Positions 8,254 to 28,974 of a stretch of DNA of 32,941 bases are shown piece after piece. Source of the DNA: Aporhodopirellula sallentina SM41 (GTDB lineage Bacteria; Planctomycetota; Planctomycetia; Pirellulales; Pirellulaceae); the NCBI RefSeq assembly GCF_000346505.1, contig NZ_ANOH01000118.1, positions 1-32,941 on the forward strand, in the 5' to 3' direction. Made by a program: the position numbers and the translations under genes. The notes below the pieces were generated by a model. The model was given only the letters and a program-made list of their open reading frames with translations. It was not told where the DNA came from and did not search any database. The first letter of the stretch is position 1, and each line of letters starts with the position of its first letter.

Positions 8254-9172
8254 CATGAATGGCATAGTACTCCGTGCTTAGAGCGTGCCAGCCAGATACT
8301 CGGTCTCATCCACTCGGATGTCGATTTACGTTGCATCCGGTGTCCGGATCTCGATCACCATTGCAAATGACAGTTTGATCGGTGTCGCGTTACCGATGAT
8401 CCACTCGTGATTGCGATCAGTTCTGCTATCTCGTTTGTATTCTGGCGTTTGCACTCTCGATCTGGCTTCCCACCCCGCGGCACTTTCCTGCCCCACACTC
8501 GACCCACAGGGCGGGTAGCAATAATGTGGCGAGAGGCGGGCTGGCATTGAGATAAGCTATCAGATGAAAAGCTATTCTGCTCTAGCTCGCGCTTTGTCAG
8601 CTGTCAGCATGGTTGCTTTGCCGGCGATTAGCGTCTCGCCGCCTGGTCACCCTTTGTGCCATCGGTTGCATCGACCGACGTGGATCAGAATTTTCGCGAG
8701 GTCGCAGCGGTAGGCTGCCCGCCCTGAGACCGAAGCGAGTTTGGCCGTCTCGACCGGTTGAGCCGCCGAAGTCGGCCGCCGGTGCGCCGAAATAGCCCGT
8801 CGAAAGTCGCGTCGGTGTCTGACACGGCCTGCAGTTTGTGGGATTTCTTCGTTCGGTAGGTTTGTCCAACCTCGAGCTCGAAATCGTTGGGGCGATGTTC
8901 GAATGACCGGCTCCAATTTCGGCGTTAGAACAACGCTGAGCACTGACCTATCAGACCTGAACAGGTCTTCACTGCTATGTGCACAACCTCTCAATTAGCA
9001 ACGCCACGAAGCGGAGATTGCTGGAGCTATGAGAAACTGTGTGAAGGGTGAATCAATTCATCTGATTAGCTTCTAATGAAATCGCGAATTTTGACTGTTT
9101 GATTCTGGGTCGAGGTGTAGGATGCGTCCGCGAAATGCAGGATGTCAAGCCCAGACCCCGAAGGACAACGTT
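8254..9172. other. Intergenic region of about 0.9 kb with partial repeat copies
   Basis: I see no convincing gene in either strand: the open frames here are short, cysteine/arginine-rich and lack signals. It holds degenerate members of the repeat family seen elsewhere in the window: a hairpin around TCGGTTGCATCGACCGA at 8662-8678 and a half-element at about 8750-8786 that shares CCGAAGTCGGCC with the copy at 13921. The promoter for the downstream SUMF1-like gene presumably lies in the last 150 nt, but I cannot define it. Confidence 0.6.
8662..8678 (+). repeat. Degenerate copy of the GGTTGCATCGACC hairpin repeat
   Basis: TCGGT and ACCGA form a perfect 5-bp stem around the loop TGCATCG. The same core, GGTTGCATCGAC, recurs at about 10899-10910 and 13827-13838, and GGTTTCATCGACC at 13921, 17929 (inverted) and 19315, always outside genes. 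About 75 nt further on, 8750-8786 resembles the second half of the 13921 copy. Confidence 0.5.
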
Positions 9173-10822
9173 GTGAATAGATATATCCCAATTGTGTTCG
9201 GTTGTGCTTTGAGCGCATTATTGATCGATAGAACCGCCATCGGAGCGAACATCACCTTTGGGAGCGGTGAGAACGCCTTCTCCATAGAGTTCGTTAAAAT
9301 CGGCGACCCCGGTAACGTCCGCGACGCCTCGTCGGGATATGGTTCCGTTGGCTACGATTACTTGATAGCCGTGCACGAGGTGAGCCGCGATATGATAACG
9401 AAGGCTAATAACGTGGGTGGCTTGAAGATAAGGATGCTATCCCACCGGCTAGCCAACTATATTGCTGGTGGAACACGGCCTAACATGGCGGCAGATGGAA
9501 TTAGCTGGTATGAGGCGGCAAAGTTTGCCAACTATCTGAATGCTGTTCAGGGATTTCCTGCAGCGTACAAGTTCGACGCCAATGGAAACATCCAATTTTG
9601 GCAGTCCGGTGACGCCGGGTTCGACCCGTCGAATCCCCTTAGAAACAGCAACGCAAACTTTTTCATTCCTACGAATAGCGAATGGCACAAGGCCGCCTAT
9701 TACGACGGCAACGGCAACTACTTTAAGCATGCAACCGGCAGCAATTCTACACCGACTCCTGTCGCAAGCGGCACGGCTGCTGGCACTGCCGTGATCAAGC
9801 AACCGATCAGTCAGGGGCCAGCGGACATCACGCTCGCCGGAGGCCTGAGCCCTCTCGGAACGATGGGGCAATGCGGAAACGTGATGGAGTGGACCGAGAG
9901 CGATGACCAATTCAAGCTGGCAGGATCTGCCCGAATAAATCTCGGCGGATCCTGGCATTTGGGGTGGGGGAGGAATACCAGTTCTGCTGCTGGACCATCG
10001 GGAAAGGGCTACAGTGATCTGGGGGTTGGCTTTCGGGTTGTAAGTCTCGGACGGGAACCTGAGTCGAGGTCGATGTTTGACCCCAATGTCACTGTAAAGG
10101 AGGGCTCAAAGAAGACACTGAAGCTCTCGCATCACTCAGCGGAGTATATCGAGGTTCCGCTGGAAAGAAATCCTTACGGAAGATGGGGCCCTTACAAGCT
10201 GGAGCGAATCGAGGGGCTCAGGCCCTGGGCGTTTTTTGTTGTGGAGAGGCCAGGAAACATCTCGCTTGGACTCTACGTGCCTAAGAGGTTGAACCAGGGA
10301 GGAAAGGACTACGAGAGGATTGAAATTGGTGGTTACTTCGTACGGATGGCTTACCTCGAGAACGGGACTTTTGCAAGCCCCTCTAAGATTACTGAATATG
10401 AAATACGCGGCACGCTCTATGACTCAACCGTCCAATTCGATGTCTTGAAACGAAAGAGACCGGAGTTCAGCATTGAAGTAGACTTCGCTACTGGAATTGG
10501 GAAGAGATGGGATAAGAAACAGAAAGACCGAAATCCAGAATCTGGAACATACGTAGCAGTGTCGCGAGGCGAAGATCCGATGGACATCGAGGGCTATCGC
10601 TTAGTGCTGGAAGACGCGTTTGTGAAACTGCTTGATGACATGAATACCCATGCCCAGTTTCATCCACATGCGTTTGACGAATTACGGAAGCAATCATGCG
10701 TGCTTTTTAAAGAGCTCTACCACGGTCACAGCAACCTCCGCGCTAGTGTGATATTCGAGAGACACGGTGTCGGTTTTAGGATAAGTACCGAGGATGGTCA
10801 CGTAGAGCGACATAATAATTAG
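9173..10822 (+). CDS. Secreted SUMF1/FGE-fold protein with an unrecognised C-terminal half
   Basis: Start chosen at GTG 9173, preceded by AAGGA at good spacing and giving a clean signal peptide (MNRYIPIVFGCALSALLIDRTAIGA); ATG 9122 in the same frame would put 17 polar residues before it. The mature part to about residue 300 has the formylglycine-generating-enzyme (SUMF1) fold pattern: ISWYEAAKFANYLNA, FFIPTNSEWHKAAYYDG, GQCGNVMEWTE, LGGSWHLG and GVGFRVV. The cysteine pair that active FGE carries after GGSW is absent (GGSWHLGWGRNTSS), so it is probably not a sulfatase-activating enzyme but a binding or structural relative, common in planctomycetes. The remaining 240 residues (from about MFDPNVTVKEGSK) match nothing I know; they are lysine- and arginine-rich and mix beta-strand and helical stretches. 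It stands alone between two intergenic spacers. Confidence 0.85.
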   Translation: MNRYIPIVFGCALSALLIDRTAIGANITFGSGENAFSIEFVKIGDPGNVRDASSGYGSVGYDYLIAVHEVSRDMITKANNVGGLKIRMLSHRLANYIAGGTRPNMAADGISWYEAAKFANYLNAVQGFPAAYKFDANGNIQFWQSGDAGFDPSNPLRNSNANFFIPTNSEWHKAAYYDGNGNYFKHATGSNSTPTPVASGTAAGTAVIKQPISQGPADITLAGGLSPLGTMGQCGNVMEWTESDDQFKLAGSARINLGGSWHLGWGRNTSSAAGPSGKGYSDLGVGFRVVSLGREPESRSMFDPNVTVKEGSKKTLKLSHHSAEYIEVPLERNPYGRWGPYKLERIEGLRPWAFFVVERPGNISLGLYVPKRLNQGGKDYERIEIGGYFVRMAYLENGTFASPSKITEYEIRGTLYDSTVQFDVLKRKRPEFSIEVDFATGIGKRWDKKQKDRNPESGTYVAVSRGEDPMDIEGYRLVLEDAFVKLLDDMNTHAQFHPHAFDELRKQSCVLFKELYHGHSNLRASVIFERHGVGFRISTEDGHVERHNN

Positions 10823-13920: not shown

Positions 13921-13971
13921 TGCTCCGGTTTCATCGACCGGAGCAACTCACCGAAGTCGGCCTCCGGAGCG
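13921..13971 (+). repeat. 51-bp intergenic repeat with perfect hairpin, copy A
   Basis: The first half is a perfect hairpin: GCTCCGGT (13922-13929), loop TTCATCG, ACCGGAGC (13937-13944). The second half ends in GTCGGCCTCCGGAGCG, which repeats the CCGGAGC arm and could form an alternative pairing. It aligns over its full length with the inverse of 17929-17979 (42 of 51 positions identical by hand count). Confidence 0.7.
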
Positions 13972-14069
13972 TGTCCGCTACTTTGCCCACTCACTCCGAG
14001 CAAGCGATGGTCAATGCGCGGAGTGCTACCTGCGTCTTAGCCTCGTCCGTTTTTATGCGGAGTTTCATG

Positions 14070-17000
14070 TTATCGCAGCATTAGCCAATAGCGAATCTCC
14101 GTTTCTATTGCGTCGGCAGAAAAGGGATCAACCCGAAAGATAGAATCAAGTTGGCGCAAGATCCATCTTGCACCCGCCGGATCGTTTAAGGCATCCAGCA
14201 ACGCCTGAATTACTCGGCTTTGCAGTAGGTCCGGGCAATCCGTTCGCCGCAGCAATCTGAGAGTATCGGCAACAATACGTGCTCTCTGGACTGGAGGGTG
14301 ATTCGTGTTGGCGATCAAAGACAAAGACTGCTTCAGTGGCCAGCGATTTGGATCCCACTCAGATTCTTTTGCCGCTGCAACAACTGTGGAAGCGTGCCAG
14401 ATGAGTTGGGTGTAGTCCCACGATGCGAGTTTTGCTGTGTACAGATCGAAGGCTTTTTGATCGCAGTTCTCAGCGAACACTTGTTGACTAAGGACGAGTT
14501 GAGTCCATACCGAATCGACACCGAAGTCGGCTTTGCCAATCAACCCCAGCACGGCGTCGTCGGTCCAAATGGGAATTCCTAAATCGCTAGCAATGCAAAT
14601 TGAATCCAAGCCATGAAAGCCAATTGCTACACGGTACAGCTTGCGTCGTTCTGGGTCGATTCCCACGCTAGAACTAGAGGACTGAACATGACAATTCGAA
14701 GCAATCCAATCGCGCATCTTTTGCAGACCATCGACTCGTGACTGTTTTTCTTCGCCAGAAATCTCGGTCATGACAAGTTTGCCATCCTCACCGAGATTCA
14801 TGTAGCTCGACGCCTTATCTCCCTTTGCGCGATCTATCCATTGATCTACCTCTTCGACTGTTGACTGAGTTACAATCATTCGATCAACGATTGGCACGTC
14901 TTCCCACGCATCAATATGCCAACATGTCGCGATCGCCGTGAGCTCAAACAAGATTGAGGAATGCTGAAATCCCTTCTCGGAAAGTTGGTGAAACTCTTGT
15001 GGAGTAGTCCGCGAACACTTCACGCACCCATCGGGATGATCAGCCAGAGTCTGTAGGGCTTGCGGTATGTTGAAACCAAGTTGAGATGCCAGGAAGTGGA
15101 TCGTCAAGTTCTCGTCTCGGTATGCTCGAATACAGTGGTCGATGTGATCACGACGCTTCTCTAAGCTGCTTACGAGTGGCTCGATATTGAGCTGGCCATC
15201 GTCTTTGAATCCTGAAAACTCCTGCAACACGGACGTATCGGGGAATCTCTTGCGGAAATTGCCGATTGAATCCTGAAACGCCCGCAACTGCTTAGTCTGC
15301 AGTTCGGCTAATTCGGCCGTTTCTTCTTGAAAACCTCCAGGGAGTTCGATGTGATCACCGACAGCGCGACCTAGCAAGGTCTTGCCGATTGGGCTATCGG
15401 AAGCAAACTCACCTCTGCTCGGCTTGGGCCGGTCGTTTTCAAAAGTAATCCACTGGTCGGACTTGCCTGTCTTTTTCAGGAGCACGGCTGTATCGTTTGC
15501 TACACGAGCAGGGGCAGCCCCCAGTCCTGTGTATTGACCATGCTGGAGAACGAAGAAGATGTAATGCGCGTGAGCTTGTTCGCTGTCAAAGTTCAAACGG
15601 AGTTGTTCGTACAGGAATTCCAGTGCGAGATCAAACTTGTCCCCAGCGATGTATGGCATCGTGACAATCGCTGCTTCGATTGGTTCGATGTCGGAGGGTG
15701 TTGGAAGATGGTCGGGGTCAAGATCAAGCTGATCTAAACGGCCAAGCCGAACTGCCAAGAAGTTCCGAAACGCGACAAAGAAACGAGGGTCACCAGCGGT
15801 TTCAACATGCTGACCGGCTAACTCGAAAGCATCTTGCGGTAGATACTCGGATAGCACCTTCAACTCAAGCTTTCGCACTTTGTCATCTTGTGCTTCGGAT
15901 TCACGAAGCTCCCGACAAATCCGCAAAAGCCAATCATGTCGCTCTAGATGCTGAGCACAAGTCAGGTACTGCTTCATTGAGTCATCAAAGACTCCTGGCG
16001 TCACAACCTGCTCGAAGATCATCGCTGCTTCTGGGAACTGCTCCAACTCGAATAGAAGTGATGCGAGCAACTCTAGCTCTTGGCGATGCACTGACTCCGT
16101 GCTCTGCTCTAGTGCAAAGGAAGTCTCTTGTTTAGCCTTGTCAATTTCGTTGGTTACCTGGTAGATCCAGCCCTGTAACGTATGTGCTTGCAAAGGATTT
16201 GACTTCAGAAACTCGTCCGTAACGCATGTCTTCCCAAGTTCGTAGTCTTGGATCCCGATCGCCCATTGAACCGCATGAAATCGGCACTCAAGACTTCGTT
16301 CCCAATCCTGATTTGCGAGCTCAAGCATCTGCTTTATGCACTCTCGCTTCGTCTCGCCATCGGAATTGTGGTACTCAATGCCAACCGCAAGAAACTTACC
16401 TTCCAAGGTGTCGAGATCCAGTTTGTCACGAAGCTTCCATGCTTCCTCGTACATTCTGGTATGAAGAAAGAATGACGCTGCCCTTGCAACATAGCTGGCT
16501 GATTGAATTTTACAGGCAGCAGCTTTTTGATGATCGGAAGCTGCAGCATCCAGATTATCGAGAAGGAAATTTACCACCCCCCGGTGTGTGAAGGACTCAG
16601 GAAGCAAATTCGGATAGTCGCGTTCCGTAGCAAGGTCGATTGCAGTTGTATACTGTTTTAACGCTAGATCGAGGTTCAAGCGACGTGCCTGCCATGCACC
16701 ATGAACTGCCTCTTCGTGAGCGATGCAGGCATCAGCGAGGTAGGCGTATGGAGACTCGGAGTCTATCTCCAACGCACGGTCCGTGAACTCGCGAGCTTTC
16801 TCGTATTGTTTGCCCGCTGAAAACTTGTAGGCAAGTGCAACACATAAGTTGTCGTCCGATTTAGCAAGTGTTTCAATTTCGGCAAGGTAGGCGTCGACGT
16901 CTTCTAATGTATCTGCAGTATGTACAAGATGACTCGCCATTACGGCATTGCGTAGACCGTCTTCAAAATACTGTTTCGCCAGTTCGTGTGCCTCATTCGG

Positions 17001-17744
17001 CTTGCCTTGCAAGAACATGCCGTATACTCGGTTTTGCTTCGCTTCGTCTGAGTCTGGAGTCTTGTCAAACGCTGAAAGAAAACACTTGCCCGCTTCAGAG
17101 TACTGCCCGTTTTCAACCGCCACCTTGCCCTTTAATCGTAGGTAGCGGTACTGCTCCTCAAGAGATAGGTTTCCGGTTGAATTGAGGGCTTCCAGCTTTT
17201 CAAGTTCGTGCTTCGCGGCATCGAGCCTGCGATCCTTCAGAAGTTCCTCTACGAGCGGAGCGATTTGGTGTGCTCTAGGGATTTGCTCCATTGCACCGGC
17301 AAGGATGTTTTGACCATAGACAATGATCTCCGCTTGAACTCGGTGAAACAGGGAGAGTAGTTCGCAGATGTCTTCCCAAAAGTGAATCTCAACCGTGAAC
17401 TTCTTGTTTTTTCGGCGGTTGAGTGTGGCAACACAATTCTGTGCGTTCTTGGTTTTTTTGGCCGTAGTCGCAATGATGTAGTGGCTGAGTGGATGTGGGA
17501 ATTTCTCTGCTTTGGCAACTTCATCTTTGATCTCCTGGGGAGGCAGCGTTTTGTGCGGTTCGTGATGTTTGCATTGAACGGCAGATGTTGGTTTGAGACA
17601 CAGCGGATCAAAGATGTCCACACCATCCTGCGATTCACCGCGTTTCCCGTAGCGTTTCAGGTTTTGACGATCTAAGTGTTTCCGGTAGAAACGCAGGCAA
17701 AAGTCCTCAAACTCATCTTCGTTATCTGGTTGTGGGTATCTCAT
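14070..17744 (-). CDS. Predicted PD-(D/E)xK nuclease - TPR - GreAB-C-like - PIN multidomain protein (candidate conflict/defence effector)
   Basis: Start chosen at ATG 17744 (1224 aa); the frame extends 12 codons to a TTG at 17780. Residues 1-135 look like an Mrr/restriction-type nuclease: after an acidic helix (EDEFEDFCLRFYRKHL) comes GESQDGVDIFDP...AVQCKH, giving D43 and Q57-x-K59 of a PD-(D/E)xK site. About 160-740 is a long array of TPR-like helical pairs. Around 755-810, WITFENDRPKPSR...SPIGKTLLGRAVGDHIELP resembles the C-terminal FKBP-like domain of GreA/GreB. About 915-1100 looks like a PIN-type RNase: strand HSSILFELTAIATC, then MIVTQSTVEEVDQWI, and IPIWTDDAVLGLIG with two aspartates. 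TPR-GreAB-C-PIN arrangements are known; here a second nuclease is added at the N-terminus. It stands alone with repeat-bearing spacers on both sides. Role in defence is inference. Confidence 0.75.
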   Translation of the reverse strand: MRYPQPDNEDEFEDFCLRFYRKHLDRQNLKRYGKRGESQDGVDIFDPLCLKPTSAVQCKHHEPHKTLPPQEIKDEVAKAEKFPHPLSHYIIATTAKKTKNAQNCVATLNRRKNKKFTVEIHFWEDICELLSLFHRVQAEIIVYGQNILAGAMEQIPRAHQIAPLVEELLKDRRLDAAKHELEKLEALNSTGNLSLEEQYRYLRLKGKVAVENGQYSEAGKCFLSAFDKTPDSDEAKQNRVYGMFLQGKPNEAHELAKQYFEDGLRNAVMASHLVHTADTLEDVDAYLAEIETLAKSDDNLCVALAYKFSAGKQYEKAREFTDRALEIDSESPYAYLADACIAHEEAVHGAWQARRLNLDLALKQYTTAIDLATERDYPNLLPESFTHRGVVNFLLDNLDAAASDHQKAAACKIQSASYVARAASFFLHTRMYEEAWKLRDKLDLDTLEGKFLAVGIEYHNSDGETKRECIKQMLELANQDWERSLECRFHAVQWAIGIQDYELGKTCVTDEFLKSNPLQAHTLQGWIYQVTNEIDKAKQETSFALEQSTESVHRQELELLASLLFELEQFPEAAMIFEQVVTPGVFDDSMKQYLTCAQHLERHDWLLRICRELRESEAQDDKVRKLELKVLSEYLPQDAFELAGQHVETAGDPRFFVAFRNFLAVRLGRLDQLDLDPDHLPTPSDIEPIEAAIVTMPYIAGDKFDLALEFLYEQLRLNFDSEQAHAHYIFFVLQHGQYTGLGAAPARVANDTAVLLKKTGKSDQWITFENDRPKPSRGEFASDSPIGKTLLGRAVGDHIELPGGFQEETAELAELQTKQLRAFQDSIGNFRKRFPDTSVLQEFSGFKDDGQLNIEPLVSSLEKRRDHIDHCIRAYRDENLTIHFLASQLGFNIPQALQTLADHPDGCVKCSRTTPQEFHQLSEKGFQHSSILFELTAIATCWHIDAWEDVPIVDRMIVTQSTVEEVDQWIDRAKGDKASSYMNLGEDGKLVMTEISGEEKQSRVDGLQKMRDWIASNCHVQSSSSSVGIDPERRKLYRVAIGFHGLDSICIASDLGIPIWTDDAVLGLIGKADFGVDSVWTQLVLSQQVFAENCDQKAFDLYTAKLASWDYTQLIWHASTVVAAAKESEWDPNRWPLKQSLSLIANTNHPPVQRARIVADTLRLLRRTDCPDLLQSRVIQALLDALNDPAGARWILRQLDSIFRVDPFSADAIETEIRYWLMLR

Positions 17745-18214
17745 GAGGCTGGTATAGGGTGATAGTAAACGGGAACCCAATGTTCAGAGCTGGCCTAAAT
17801 CAGTCGTGCTCTGTGCCTAGTTCCGAAGTTCAGTATCCACTTTGAGGATGCTGACGGGAACGGGGACTGGAATGTTCTTGCACCTGAACATCTTCGGTCA
17901 ACCGGAAACAATGAATTTGCGTCTAGCGCGCTCCGGTGGCCGACACCGGATCAGTGCCCCGGTCGATGAAACCGGAGCACGCTTCGGAATTACTTGCTCA
18001 AGTCGGTTCGTCATGTACAGCTGGCGATGTTTCTTACCACCGCGTTCGTTAACTATTTCGACATGAAACGGGCGGCCCTTGCGCACCGAACTGGAACGCT
18101 GTCGCAGAATGTTAGCTTCGGAAGTCGATGACACTGCCGTCATCGAGTATTCCGAATTGTTGCAGTCAGTGTGTTCTAACTTGCTATTGCTCCACTGTTA
18201 GCCTTCTGGTTCAC
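17745..18214. other. Intergenic region of 470 bp with an inverted 51-bp repeat
   Basis: No gene is supported in either strand. It contains repeat copy B at 17929-17979. It should hold the promoter of the multidomain nuclease gene, but no clear -35/-10 pair or ribosome site stands out upstream of ATG 17744 (the leader reads CACCCTATACCAGCCTC). Confidence 0.55.
17929..17979 (-). repeat. 51-bp intergenic repeat, copy B (inverted)
   Basis: On the minus strand it begins TGCTCCGGTTTCATCGACCG, identical to the first 20 bases of copy A, and ends GTCGGCCACCGGAGCG. The hairpin arm differs by one base (ACCGGGGC) that still allows a G-U pair. About 185 nt upstream of the nuclease start. Confidence 0.7.
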
Positions 18215-19057
18215 CTACCTTGCGTTATCTTGAACTTCGTACTTGCTCAAGTTGGCATCGGCAGGCGCCCGCGAATCGGTCGATAATTGCTCAGTCCAGT
18301 AGGCGATTCTTGTCTTGCCCGATTGCCGTGAAAGTTCTTCCACAACGGCGGTCAGCTCTACGGCGTTTTGTTGCAGAATCAGACTGTTGCCGCGCCAGCC
18401 CAAAACGTTCCAACCGTGATCGGTCAACAACTTGCGAACCGCTTCCCTGGTTTCTTCGACGCCAACACTCGTTTCATACGAGGCAATGTTATAGTTCACA
18501 CTGACAAAGGTCGCGCCGGGCGGTACTGGCAGCTTGCTTACATTGACGTTGCTTTTATTCTTCAGTCGCACCACGACTTTTCCAGGCTCGTCGTGTAGTT
18601 GGACGGTGACATAGAGGTGAAATCCGGAGCGGACGAACTGACCTTCGGCGTATCCGTTGGAGATATCGGATTCGGACCACTCCTCCCACTGTCGCTCCAG
18701 CAAGTTGCGGCGCTGAAACTCAAATACGTTTCTCACACCAAATGCCTTGAGTCGAGCTTCATACTCCAAACAAGCAACAGTTCTCGTCGTAATTTCCCCG
18801 GCGTCGGGCAGGAGTGGAAATGTCGAGAGATCGATTACAGCTGCAGCTTCAACGGTGGTCGCCGGGGTATGCAGATCTTCGTCTAATGGATCCGCCGCCT
18901 TGGCGGCTGTCTCGTGAGGTACTGAATTCGGCAACGCGCCGACGGCGGACTTCCCCGGCCCTGCGTCCGCCTGCTGATTTGACTGCGGACCGCACCCCGA
19001 GAAGCAGCCCATCATCGATAAGCCTAGTAGCAGCCCGCTGATTGACTCTGATCGCAT
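18215..19057 (-). CDS. Putative lipoprotein of unknown function
   Basis: Start chosen at ATG 19057 (280 aa), because it opens a lipoprotein signal (MRSESISGLLLGLSMMGCFSGCG) with lipobox-like MMGC/FSGC, and GGAG lies about 11 nt upstream; the frame runs on to a TTG at 19213 with no signal-like sequence. After a low-complexity region (about 25-70) comes a globular part of about 200 residues with alternating strands and helices, including GKVVVRLKNKSNVNVSKLPV and TREAVRKLLTDHGWNVLGW. I do not recognise the family. It probably sits on the outer side of the cytoplasmic membrane. It follows the zinc-ribbon gene at 19342 on the same strand after about 285 nt. Confidence 0.72.
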   Translation of the reverse strand: MRSESISGLLLGLSMMGCFSGCGPQSNQQADAGPGKSAVGALPNSVPHETAAKAADPLDEDLHTPATTVEAAAVIDLSTFPLLPDAGEITTRTVACLEYEARLKAFGVRNVFEFQRRNLLERQWEEWSESDISNGYAEGQFVRSGFHLYVTVQLHDEPGKVVVRLKNKSNVNVSKLPVPPGATFVSVNYNIASYETSVGVEETREAVRKLLTDHGWNVLGWRGNSLILQQNAVELTAVVEELSRQSGKTRIAYWTEQLSTDSRAPADANLSKYEVQDNAR

Positions 19058-19314
19058 TAAGTAGTTTCTCCAAGTAAGGCACTGAACCGGAGGGGCTGGA
19101 CGACCGACTATCCGCCACGTGTAACGTGAATCAGCTTCACGCTCGCACGATTGTATCAAGTGCCTGAAAAGCCCGTGACAAGCAAGTTGGCGAATACGAT
19201 GGGGGCGATCCAAGACTCAACCCGCGTTGCGAATGGCATAGTTTGGCAGTGTCCTGAGCAGGTTCTCTTTCCACATCAGACGCCGGTAATCCTGCAGCGG
19301 TGACCGACACCGAT

Positions 19315-19334
19315 TGCTCGGTTTCATCGACCGG
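19315..19334 (+). repeat. Intergenic hairpin repeat, copy C (short)
   Basis: TGCTCGGTTTCATCGACCGG keeps the TTCATCG loop and a CGGT/ACCG stem of copies A and B with one base missing in the left arm. It ends 8 nt beyond the stop of the small zinc-ribbon gene. An adjacent GGTGACCGACACCG upstream resembles the flank of copy B. Confidence 0.55.
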
Positions 19335-23354: not shown

Positions 23355-23791
23355 GGCGTGATTCCCACGACCTGACGCCAGTTCACCCATCTGACAAAAC
23401 ATACTTGGTCAACCGAAAAAGCGTCCATTCTTTCGGGAACAGCAAGATGCACTATTCGACCGATATTCACAGAACAAACCGAATACCTTCACTTTTCACG
23501 CGATGAACGCTCACATGTTGCATCGTTTGCCATTCACAATCTCGCAAATCACTCCGTCGAAGACGTGGCGTATGGGAAATGGAATCAAGCCGAGGCAGCG
23601 TGTGTCGACTCGAGAAACGCCCCGCTGCTTGGAAGAACCGCATGGTGCCAGCAAGAGGCCCGGTTCCCATCGGACGCATCCCCTGAATCGTCGTACACGC
23701 GACAGCGGCCGGTTACATCCAATTCACCTCCCCGGTGGGAAAACTCCGGCCGGTGAAAACCAGCTCGACGTGACTCGAGCGTCCCAACACA

Positions 23792-23887
23792 GTGAGCCGA
23801 AGTGCGTGAGCACTCGGGTGATGGGCGGGTTGGGTTTGCATACTCATTCGACGGTTCCACCCGAGGCCTCACGGCCATTCGGCTCAC
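23792..23887 (+). repeat. 96-bp nested-hairpin repeat, copy 1
   Basis: Three stems nest: GTGAGCCGAA with TTCGGCTCAC (10 bp), CGTGAG with CTCACG (6 bp), and CTCGGGTG with CACCCGAG (8 bp), around a 37-nt apical part. Further outside, ACGTGA (23768-23773) can pair with TCACGT (23888-23893). Copies 2 and 3 have exactly the same length. Copies 1 and 2 also share the 14-nt flank ACGTGACTCGAGCG. Confidence 0.85.
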
Positions 23888-23895
23888 TCACGTAG

Positions 23896-23916
23896 CTCGG
23901 TCTTTCCAAGACCGAG
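23896..23916. repeat. Perfect 9-bp hairpin between repeat copies
   Basis: CTCGGTCTT, loop TCC, AAGACCGAG. It starts 9 nt after repeat copy 1. No T run follows on either strand, so it is not a standard terminator. Confidence 0.5.
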
Positions 23917-24029
23917 AACAGGCGCCGGTTAACTCGACAAACCGATGTGCTGCGATCCGCCCGCTAGCTCAACAGTGGTTTGTCCGCCTCGGAGATGCGG
24001 ACCTACGTGACTCGAGCGTTGCTGCCCCA

Positions 24030-24125
24030 GTGAGCCGAAGTGCGTAAGCACTCGGGTATTGAGCGGGTTGGGTTTGCATGCTCTTTCGACGATCTAACCC
24101 GAGGCCTCACGGCCATTCGGATCAC
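24030..24125 (+). repeat. 96-bp nested-hairpin repeat, copy 2
   Basis: It has the same orientation as copy 1, 238 nt further on. The outer arm has one mismatch (TTCGGATCAC), the middle stem one (CGTAAG), and the inner stem keeps CTCGGGT with ACCCGAG. It begins 28 nt past the purM stop (on the purM strand), so it will be in the purM 3' untranslated region if transcription continues. Confidence 0.85.
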
Positions 24126-24152
24126 TCACGCAACTCTGCGGCAAGCGGAGGC

Positions 24153-28716: not shown

Positions 28717-28824
28717 CGATTTGAATTATTAATGCAAACCGATTGGCGCCCCTTTTCCGGGACAAGATGCCCGTATGCCGAGCAAAACGAAGTTCCCGCG
28801 TCTCACGCTACCAACTACAAACCC

Positions 28825-28920
28825 ATGAGCCGAAGTGCGTGAGCACTCGGGTGTTGGGCAGGTTGGTTTCGCGTGCTCTTTCGACGTTTCCACCCGAGGC
28901 CCTACGGCCATTCGGCTCAC
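28825..28920 (+). repeat. 96-bp nested-hairpin repeat, copy 3
   Basis: The outer stem is TGAGCCGAA with TTCGGCTCA and the inner stem CTCGGGTG with CACCCGAG, both perfect. The middle stem has lost pairing (CCTACG instead of CTCACG). Some 4.7 kb away from copy 2, in the same orientation, between convergent genes. Confidence 0.85.
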
Positions 28921-28974
28921 GGGTGCGTGCCGAATCTCGTTACCAATCCAAACTCGCTAGCGACTCCAACGTAG

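Follow-up and report, generated by a model that had tools for sequence, protein, structure and literature searches.

A probable antivirus protein of the TPR-GreA/B-C-PIN family with a predicted restriction-type nuclease domain in Aporhodopirellula sallentina

Among the bacterial conflict systems described from comparative genomics, the TPR-GreA/B-C-PIN system unites in a single polypeptide: (i) an exchangeable N-terminal effector domain; (ii) TPRs; (iii) a domain like the C-terminal part of GreA and GreB; and (iv) a PIN domain (Kaur et al., 2021, PMC8195603; Pfam family PF20698). According to the published prediction, the protein would dock on the beta' coiled coil, the transcript would be extruded and cleaved by the PIN domain, and the N-terminal effector would serve as a fallback (PMC8195603). 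The gene under study lies in a 32,941-nt stretch of Aporhodopirellula sallentina SM41 (contig NZ_ANOH01000118.1; hereafter, the window), where a minus-strand open reading frame (ORF) at 14070-17744, stop codon included (14073-17744 without it), encodes 1,224 amino acids in the order restriction endonuclease (REase), TPR, GreA/B-C, PIN and tail. Judged by its sequence, the protein is a member of the TPR-GreA/B-C-PIN system, and the gene probably encodes a stand-alone, horizontally moving antivirus protein of the abortive-infection type.

The window protein resembles the described members in having all four parts in one polypeptide and in being encoded by a stand-alone gene. Two differences concern its relatives: some of them lie within BREX (bacteriophage exclusion) or Hma operons, whereas the published account stresses stand-alone genes with few conserved neighbours, and SMEK and GT4-conflict N-termini, both found here, are not named in the text section that describes the family (PMC8195603). 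The initial annotation of this locus had proposed a conflict-system protein of the TPR-GreAB-C-PIN kind, encoded by a single gene and with a restriction-type nuclease domain at its N-terminus, a proposal that Pfam and family conservation bear out; the arrangement is indeed known from comparative work, and the nuclease, which had been regarded as an addition to it, is already listed among the published effectors (PMC8195603). What is added here are the operon placements and the module boundaries. As regards the nucleases that back up BREX, including PARIS (PMC12839542), the likeness is that one relative from the same genus is a nuclease protein encoded between core BREX genes; by contrast, the main text of that work contains neither GreA nor TPR as a whole word and describes PIN RNases as less frequent. 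Tests of two defence systems with PIN domains, DS-3 and DS-5, have been reported (PMC13092281). In the open papers searched, no experimental test of a TPR-GreA/B-C-PIN member was found, nor a BREX-embedded member, the latter not being proof of absence. The family is a prediction from comparative genomics; the window supplies an intact REase form of it with a sequence maintained by selection.

The PIN domain occupies residues 933-1071 (14532-14948; like all parts of the gene, on the minus strand) and matches PF20698 with 100.9 bits (E 9.1e-29, cut-off 27.8). Its candidate catalytic acids are E934, D1047, D1062 and D1063. Conservation was read from 24 core rows, namely 17 planctomycete proteins, two from further genomes of the phylum (G481 and G590; G766 was excluded) and five plasmid proteins. 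The 17 were aligned from 22 genomes with a PF20698 match, leaving out G031, G120, G281, G296 and G319, whose matches were either weak or truncated at the end of a contig (the core of G296 was good, though truncated). Positions 1062 and 1063 are acidic in 24/24 rows, position 1047 is D or E in 22/24, and position 965 is E in 12/24; position 934 is occupied by D in 21 rows, by H in one, by S in another and by E in the window protein. The initial annotation had noted a PIN-like end with conserved acidic residues, including a WTDD motif (W1060-D1063), in agreement with these results, and the domain is a probable RNA-cutting one. The C-terminal tail that follows (residues 1072-1224, 14073-14531) has no Pfam match and no named domain. 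Upstream of the PIN domain, the TPR array reported for the middle of the protein is found at about residues 160-740 (15525-17267), where TPR_1 scores 28.8 bits against a cut-off of 27.8 and further TPR models match. The profile search confirmed the PIN and TPR parts of the initial annotation, while the GreA_GreB and Mrr_cat_2 matches of the window protein stayed below threshold. Of five NCBIfam matches, three were to GreA models, and all stayed far from the cut-off; no family of PADLOC-DB 2.0.0 matched the protein at E up to 1, and Rfam had no match at gathering score in the window.

The N-terminal PD-(D/E)xK-type nuclease domain comprises residues 1-140 (17325-17744). Mrr_cat_2 matches residues 50-112 with 16.9 bits (E 0.0059), under its cut-off of 22, and is seen in 8/10 REase rows, above cut-off in four (the rows without it are L041 and L035). 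This weak domain call is supported by those four rows and by the residues conserved across the family. The same domain occurs in 10/17 aligned planctomycete proteins, with D43 (17616-17618) and Q57-C58-K59 (17568-17576) present in all ten; D43, Q57 and K59 occur together in none of the remaining seven. When 18 REase domains were aligned (the ten planctomycete rows and another planctomycete protein, four proteins from Alphaproteobacteria, two from Gammaproteobacteria and one from an archaeon), F12, G36, G41, D43, Q57, C58, K59, E75, T93 and W123 proved invariant. Such a residue layout is that of a PD-(D/E)xK nuclease. The D43 and Q57-x-K59 pattern of the initial annotation was thus found at those places, with D...QxK invariant in 18/18. 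Mrr-type PD-(D/E)xK restriction nucleases share with the window protein this pattern and the Mrr_cat_2 match, but here the nuclease domain is fused to a sensor platform and has no PDB relative by sequence; the PIN domain has none by sequence either. Two predicted structure models, of two sequences each, had mean predicted local distance difference test (pLDDT) values of 33.6 and 38.4, the latter for the REase part, too low to be informative; the restriction-endonuclease fold is a putative one. The N-terminus of the window protein is a probable DNA-cutting domain. The REase domain was also observed in two short proteins that lack the TPR-Gre-PIN core: one of 311 aa (L066, 5983-6918) from a Leclercia plasmid that also has capsid and tail genes of phage, and one of 291 aa from Salmonella (L070, 5977-6852), encoded near trmE next to an integrase and a primase-helicase-like gene. 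A haloarchaeal plasmid protein of 1,055 aa, annotated as a TPR protein (L067, 2340-5507), has the same REase domain and no core-profile match.

The GreA/GreB C-terminal-like domain lies at about residues 745-830 (15255-15512). GreA_GreB matches residues 773-802 with 17.5 bits (E 0.0041; cut-off 26.9) and is seen in 8/15 rows scanned, above cut-off in one of them (L040, 27.5 bits). A profile of 17 C-terminal parts has E. coli GreA (1grj) as its best PDB match (E 0.0056), followed by Gfh1 chains (2f23, 2etn, 2eul) at E 0.52-0.75; the first place of 1grj and the L040 row support the domain call, and a segment resembling the GreA/GreB C-terminal domain had already been pointed out in the initial annotation. 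Residues D783-S784-P785 (15390-15398) form a GreB-like D-S-P motif, onto which D121-S122-P123 of GreB fall. Counted along the 1grj alignment, S121 of GreA corresponds to A781 and S124 to S784 of the window protein; in E. coli GreA, S121P abolishes RNA polymerase binding and S124L retains it (PMC7527559). Compared with the transcription factors GreA, GreB and Gfh1, the window protein shares the C-terminal domain resemblance but lacks an N-terminal coiled-coil match, has TPRs before the domain and is a 1,224-aa protein of which the domain is a part.

The gene is under purifying selection in seven segments. A sibling gene in genome TBK1r (L008, 6590-12859), at a different chromosomal place, is 92% identical at the protein level over residues 273-1224 and 95% over residues 1-165; the ratio of nonsynonymous to synonymous substitution rates (dN/dS, simple count) between the two stands at 0.12 in residues 1-160, 0.18 in the Gre part, 0.21 in the linker, 0.24 in the PIN domain and 0.32 in the tail; two stretches of the TPR array give 0.17 and 0.18. 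The sibling is split at about residue 276 by an insertion, which we take to be IS21-like, and has a second element just downstream, presumably IS1380-like. Among the 17 planctomycete relatives, the C-terminal core is common and the N-termini differ. In terms of N-terminus, the 24 cores can be grouped as follows: (i) REase (15); (ii) SMEK (two) and GT4-conflict (one), both by Pfam; and (iii) types read by eye, that is, transmembrane-like (three), SIR2-like (one), PNPase-like (one) and other (one). On the core tree, whose deep order is limited by long branches and five open forks, the REase label needs three changes, at least two of them forced by well-supported branches, and all labels together need six, a number as low as which was reached by 0/200 shuffles. 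The window protein, L035 and L036 (rows of the genus) belong to a single supported clade, six rows in all, that also takes in rows of other families; L037, of the same genus and with a transmembrane-like N-terminus, lies elsewhere. N-termini have been exchanged between relatives on a shared core.

The distribution of relatives is patchy. With the window genome counted, PF20698 relatives occur in 4/13 genomes of the genus, 6/60 related genomes, 18/397 genomes of the class (16 above cut-off) and 5/392 in a draw from the phylum (three above cut-off); the homologues are not core housekeeping genes at a conserved locus. The initial annotation had named that outcome, or the lack of a significant nuclease or PIN profile match, as evidence against its proposal; the PIN match is strong and the nuclease is backed by family conservation. 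Of 72,556 plasmid records, 19 match, eight of them typed conjugative and none covering 80% of the query in one place. Core and REase were confirmed together on Bosea, Sinorhizobium, Ancylobacter and Bradyrhizobium plasmids, and a Nostoc plasmid carries the core with another N-terminus; in 3/8 plasmid or phage-collection proteins examined, the REase has no core match. Two scans of IMG/VR found no relative, and the one match among phage records comes from the Salmonella contig, where a 291-aa protein has just the REase-like domain. Six Bacteroidota loci (L009-L014) were set aside; in the three that were read (L009, L011 and L014) the match falls in the TPR part only, these being ordinary TPR proteins with 594-600 aa. 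In a control genome, that of Methanocaldococcus jannaschii, a PF20698 match below the curated cut-off was seen.

Sixteen neighbourhoods of relatives were surveyed, 30 genes of eight loci being scanned singly and the remaining eight loci through pooled tallies (best 25 families each). In at least 5/16, the relative is next to or within a group of BREX, Hma or type I restriction-modification genes; in single cases the operon placement is telling. In L035, from the same genus, one strand carries brxC, a PDC-M47A/PD-T4-4_A gene with a further match to AriA, pglX, the relative, pglZ and brxL. In L040, pglZ, brxD and brxHI precede the relative, which overlaps brxHI by 14 nt as the ORFs were called, with ZacB and ZacC beyond. 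The relative of L049 abuts HmaC, followed by HmaB; that of L037 has HsdR and HsdS as neighbours, and that of L039 has HsdR, HEC-06/Orf5, an Aga-type REase gene and PDC-S28. In single scans, seven genes from L042, L050 and L051 had no match at E up to 1e-20. By annotation, a Sinorhizobium meliloti plasmid has Shedu, an ATP-dependent endonuclease and a UvrD-type helicase near the relative. The relative between pglX and pglZ raises testable questions: whether such a protein is a BREX backup and whether it reads RNA polymerase. As a separate observation, the Bosea, Ancylobacter and S. meliloti plasmids have the same two genes upstream of the relative (L063, 6627-7961; L064, 7080-7970; L068, 2335-3666): the helix-turn-helix proteins are 76-90% identical, and the second proteins are 84-87% identical over the aligned part, short in S. 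meliloti and Abi-like by eye.

The gene is a module of about 4 kb between the arms of a 51-nt inverted repeat (left arm 13921-13971, plus strand; right arm 17929-17979, minus strand), which is 82% complementary and the only inverted pair of at least 30 nt reported for the window; the initial annotation had likewise described repeat-bearing spacers on both sides of the gene. Homology to two other genomes stops there. TBK1r homology runs from 13949 to 17957, ending inside both arms, and the surrounding DNA differs; in G009, a genome without a match to the protein, homology extends from 17928 to 19301 at 98.3%, both ends falling at the boundary repeat. In TBK1r, the left and right terminal half-sites appear swapped relative to the window, the outcome expected of an inversion between the arms. 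A clean empty site was not found in G009, because the left flank there is different DNA. A 16-mer repeat core has five copies in the window genome (three in the window) and five in G009 (four on one contig); it occurs in 5/15 genomes, and its reversed control in none. With up to three mismatches, G009 has seven repeat sites on one strand within 17 kb. The repeat is palindromic, of about 51 nt, with two CCGG-bounded halves and a variable loop (window 13921-13971, 17929-17979 and 19317-19334), and may be a repetitive extragenic palindromic (REP)-like element. An integron attC site is the other candidate reading; the end boxes of attC sites were not seen by eye in the repeat. Boundary-repeat modules of this type may show how such single genes move between planctomycete genomes. 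GC content is lower over 14-18 kb of the window (0.49-0.52) than over 24-27 kb (0.59-0.62); the initial annotation had judged the gene, by eye, less GC-rich than the purM-recQ part. Two further features of G009:C113 were observed: seven same-strand repeat copies at 89489-106176 with genes between them (L086, L071), cassette-array-like without recognised attC boxes, and a serine-recombinase-like gene by eye at 107144-108367 (L071), adjoining a repeat near where the window has the REase gene.

The reading of the window gene as a probable antivirus protein draws on the PF20698 match, the conserved REase and PIN residues, the dN/dS values, the exchange of N-termini, the patchy distribution, the defence and plasmid company of relatives, and the D-S-P motif of the window protein. 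From these we infer a defence role in which the TPR superhelix and the GreA/B-C module would form a platform for sensing and docking that keeps the protein on RNA polymerase or on a different infection-altered target; the PIN domain would cut RNA near the docking site and the N-terminal nuclease, as an exchangeable effector, would attack DNA, of the phage or of the cell, once the platform is triggered. Several points weigh against it. The first PIN aspartate is replaced by E934 in the window protein and also by E in the TBK1r sibling, the active site being plausible though it has E at this usual D position. The D-S-P motif is complete in 1/24 core rows (the window protein alone), P785 is present in 11/24, and the motif is thus not kept in the family; moreover, the N-terminal coiled coil of GreA_GreB, with its acidic tip, gave no Pfam match at E up to 1 in the window protein. 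The ten window genes scanned, which do not include purM and hisH, comprise no dedicated defence gene, seven having no match and three matching generic kinase or RecQ-type helicase models. Finally, a control was drawn from 12 regions of the same contigs at a distance of about 100 kb; its 131 ORFs, with one long ORF dropped for size, matched 178 PADLOC families at E up to 1e-8, which differs little from the 113 + 203 = 316 families over the 179 neighbouring ORFs. No BREX core gene is among the best 25 of the 178, where a type I methyltransferase (4e-186) stands with GajB-type helicases, PD-T4-6 kinases and mads models. Raw family counts were rejected as a measure of defence company, since generic models, for example PD-T4-6 kinases, GajB helicases and mads, are frequent in the control as well. 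Set against an assumed 1/12 or 2/12 control regions (the pooled table does not assign families to regions), the 5/16 gives a Fisher p of 0.16 or 0.33, which is not significant; enrichment is therefore unproven, and single operon placements are what tells.

Docking on RNA polymerase is possible for the window protein and doubtful as a family rule, because of the D-S-P and P785 counts. It may be, though this is not the favoured account, that the GreA/B-C domain no longer contacts RNA polymerase and that the reused module binds another partner or restrains its own effector, the TPRs alone sensing. The loss of D-S-P and P785 in so many rows while E779 (19/24), G796 (22/24) and K818 (23/24) are retained would suit such reuse, as would the apparent need of E. 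coli GreA for both its N-terminal and C-terminal domains to bind RNA polymerase specifically (PMC7527559); nevertheless, the window protein itself retains D-S-P, and the family profile still finds GreA first. A service to the module or plasmid itself in competition between mobile elements, by addiction or exclusion, instead of phage defence for the cell, appears unlikely: the 19 plasmid records with relatives, eight typed conjugative, the module boundaries at repeats, and the short REase-like proteins, one from a plasmid that also carries phage genes and one encoded next to a phage-type integrase, speak for it, but other relatives sit within BREX and Hma operons, and the module has no partner antitoxin gene. 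Regulation of transcription or RNA processing with no conflict role is very improbable. GreA/B-C and PIN would suit transcript processing, and the scanned window neighbours are not dedicated defence genes; the gene is, however, absent from 9/13 genomes of the genus, N-termini are swapped for other effector-type domains, and some relatives keep defence company. The antivirus reading can also be extended, as a speculation that we consider rather unlikely, to REase-TPR-GreAB-C-PIN proteins acting as RNA-polymerase guards, a fallback layer alone or within BREX and Hma operons: Gre-like docking would sense phage takeover of transcription, also by BREX-blinding phages, the RNase and the exchangeable DNase would then fire, and in these planctomycetes the one-gene module would be exchanged at the palindromic boundary repeat.

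Elsewhere in the window, the protein encoded at 9122-10822 has, in the C-terminal half of its first 300 residues, a resemblance by eye to the formylglycine-generating-enzyme (FGS) domain, a fold linked to conflict systems (PMC8195603). The part of the window that holds the recQ-like gene has three copies of a 109-nt direct repeat (23790-23898, 24028-24136 and 28823-28931); identity to the first copy is 88% for the second and 81% for the third.

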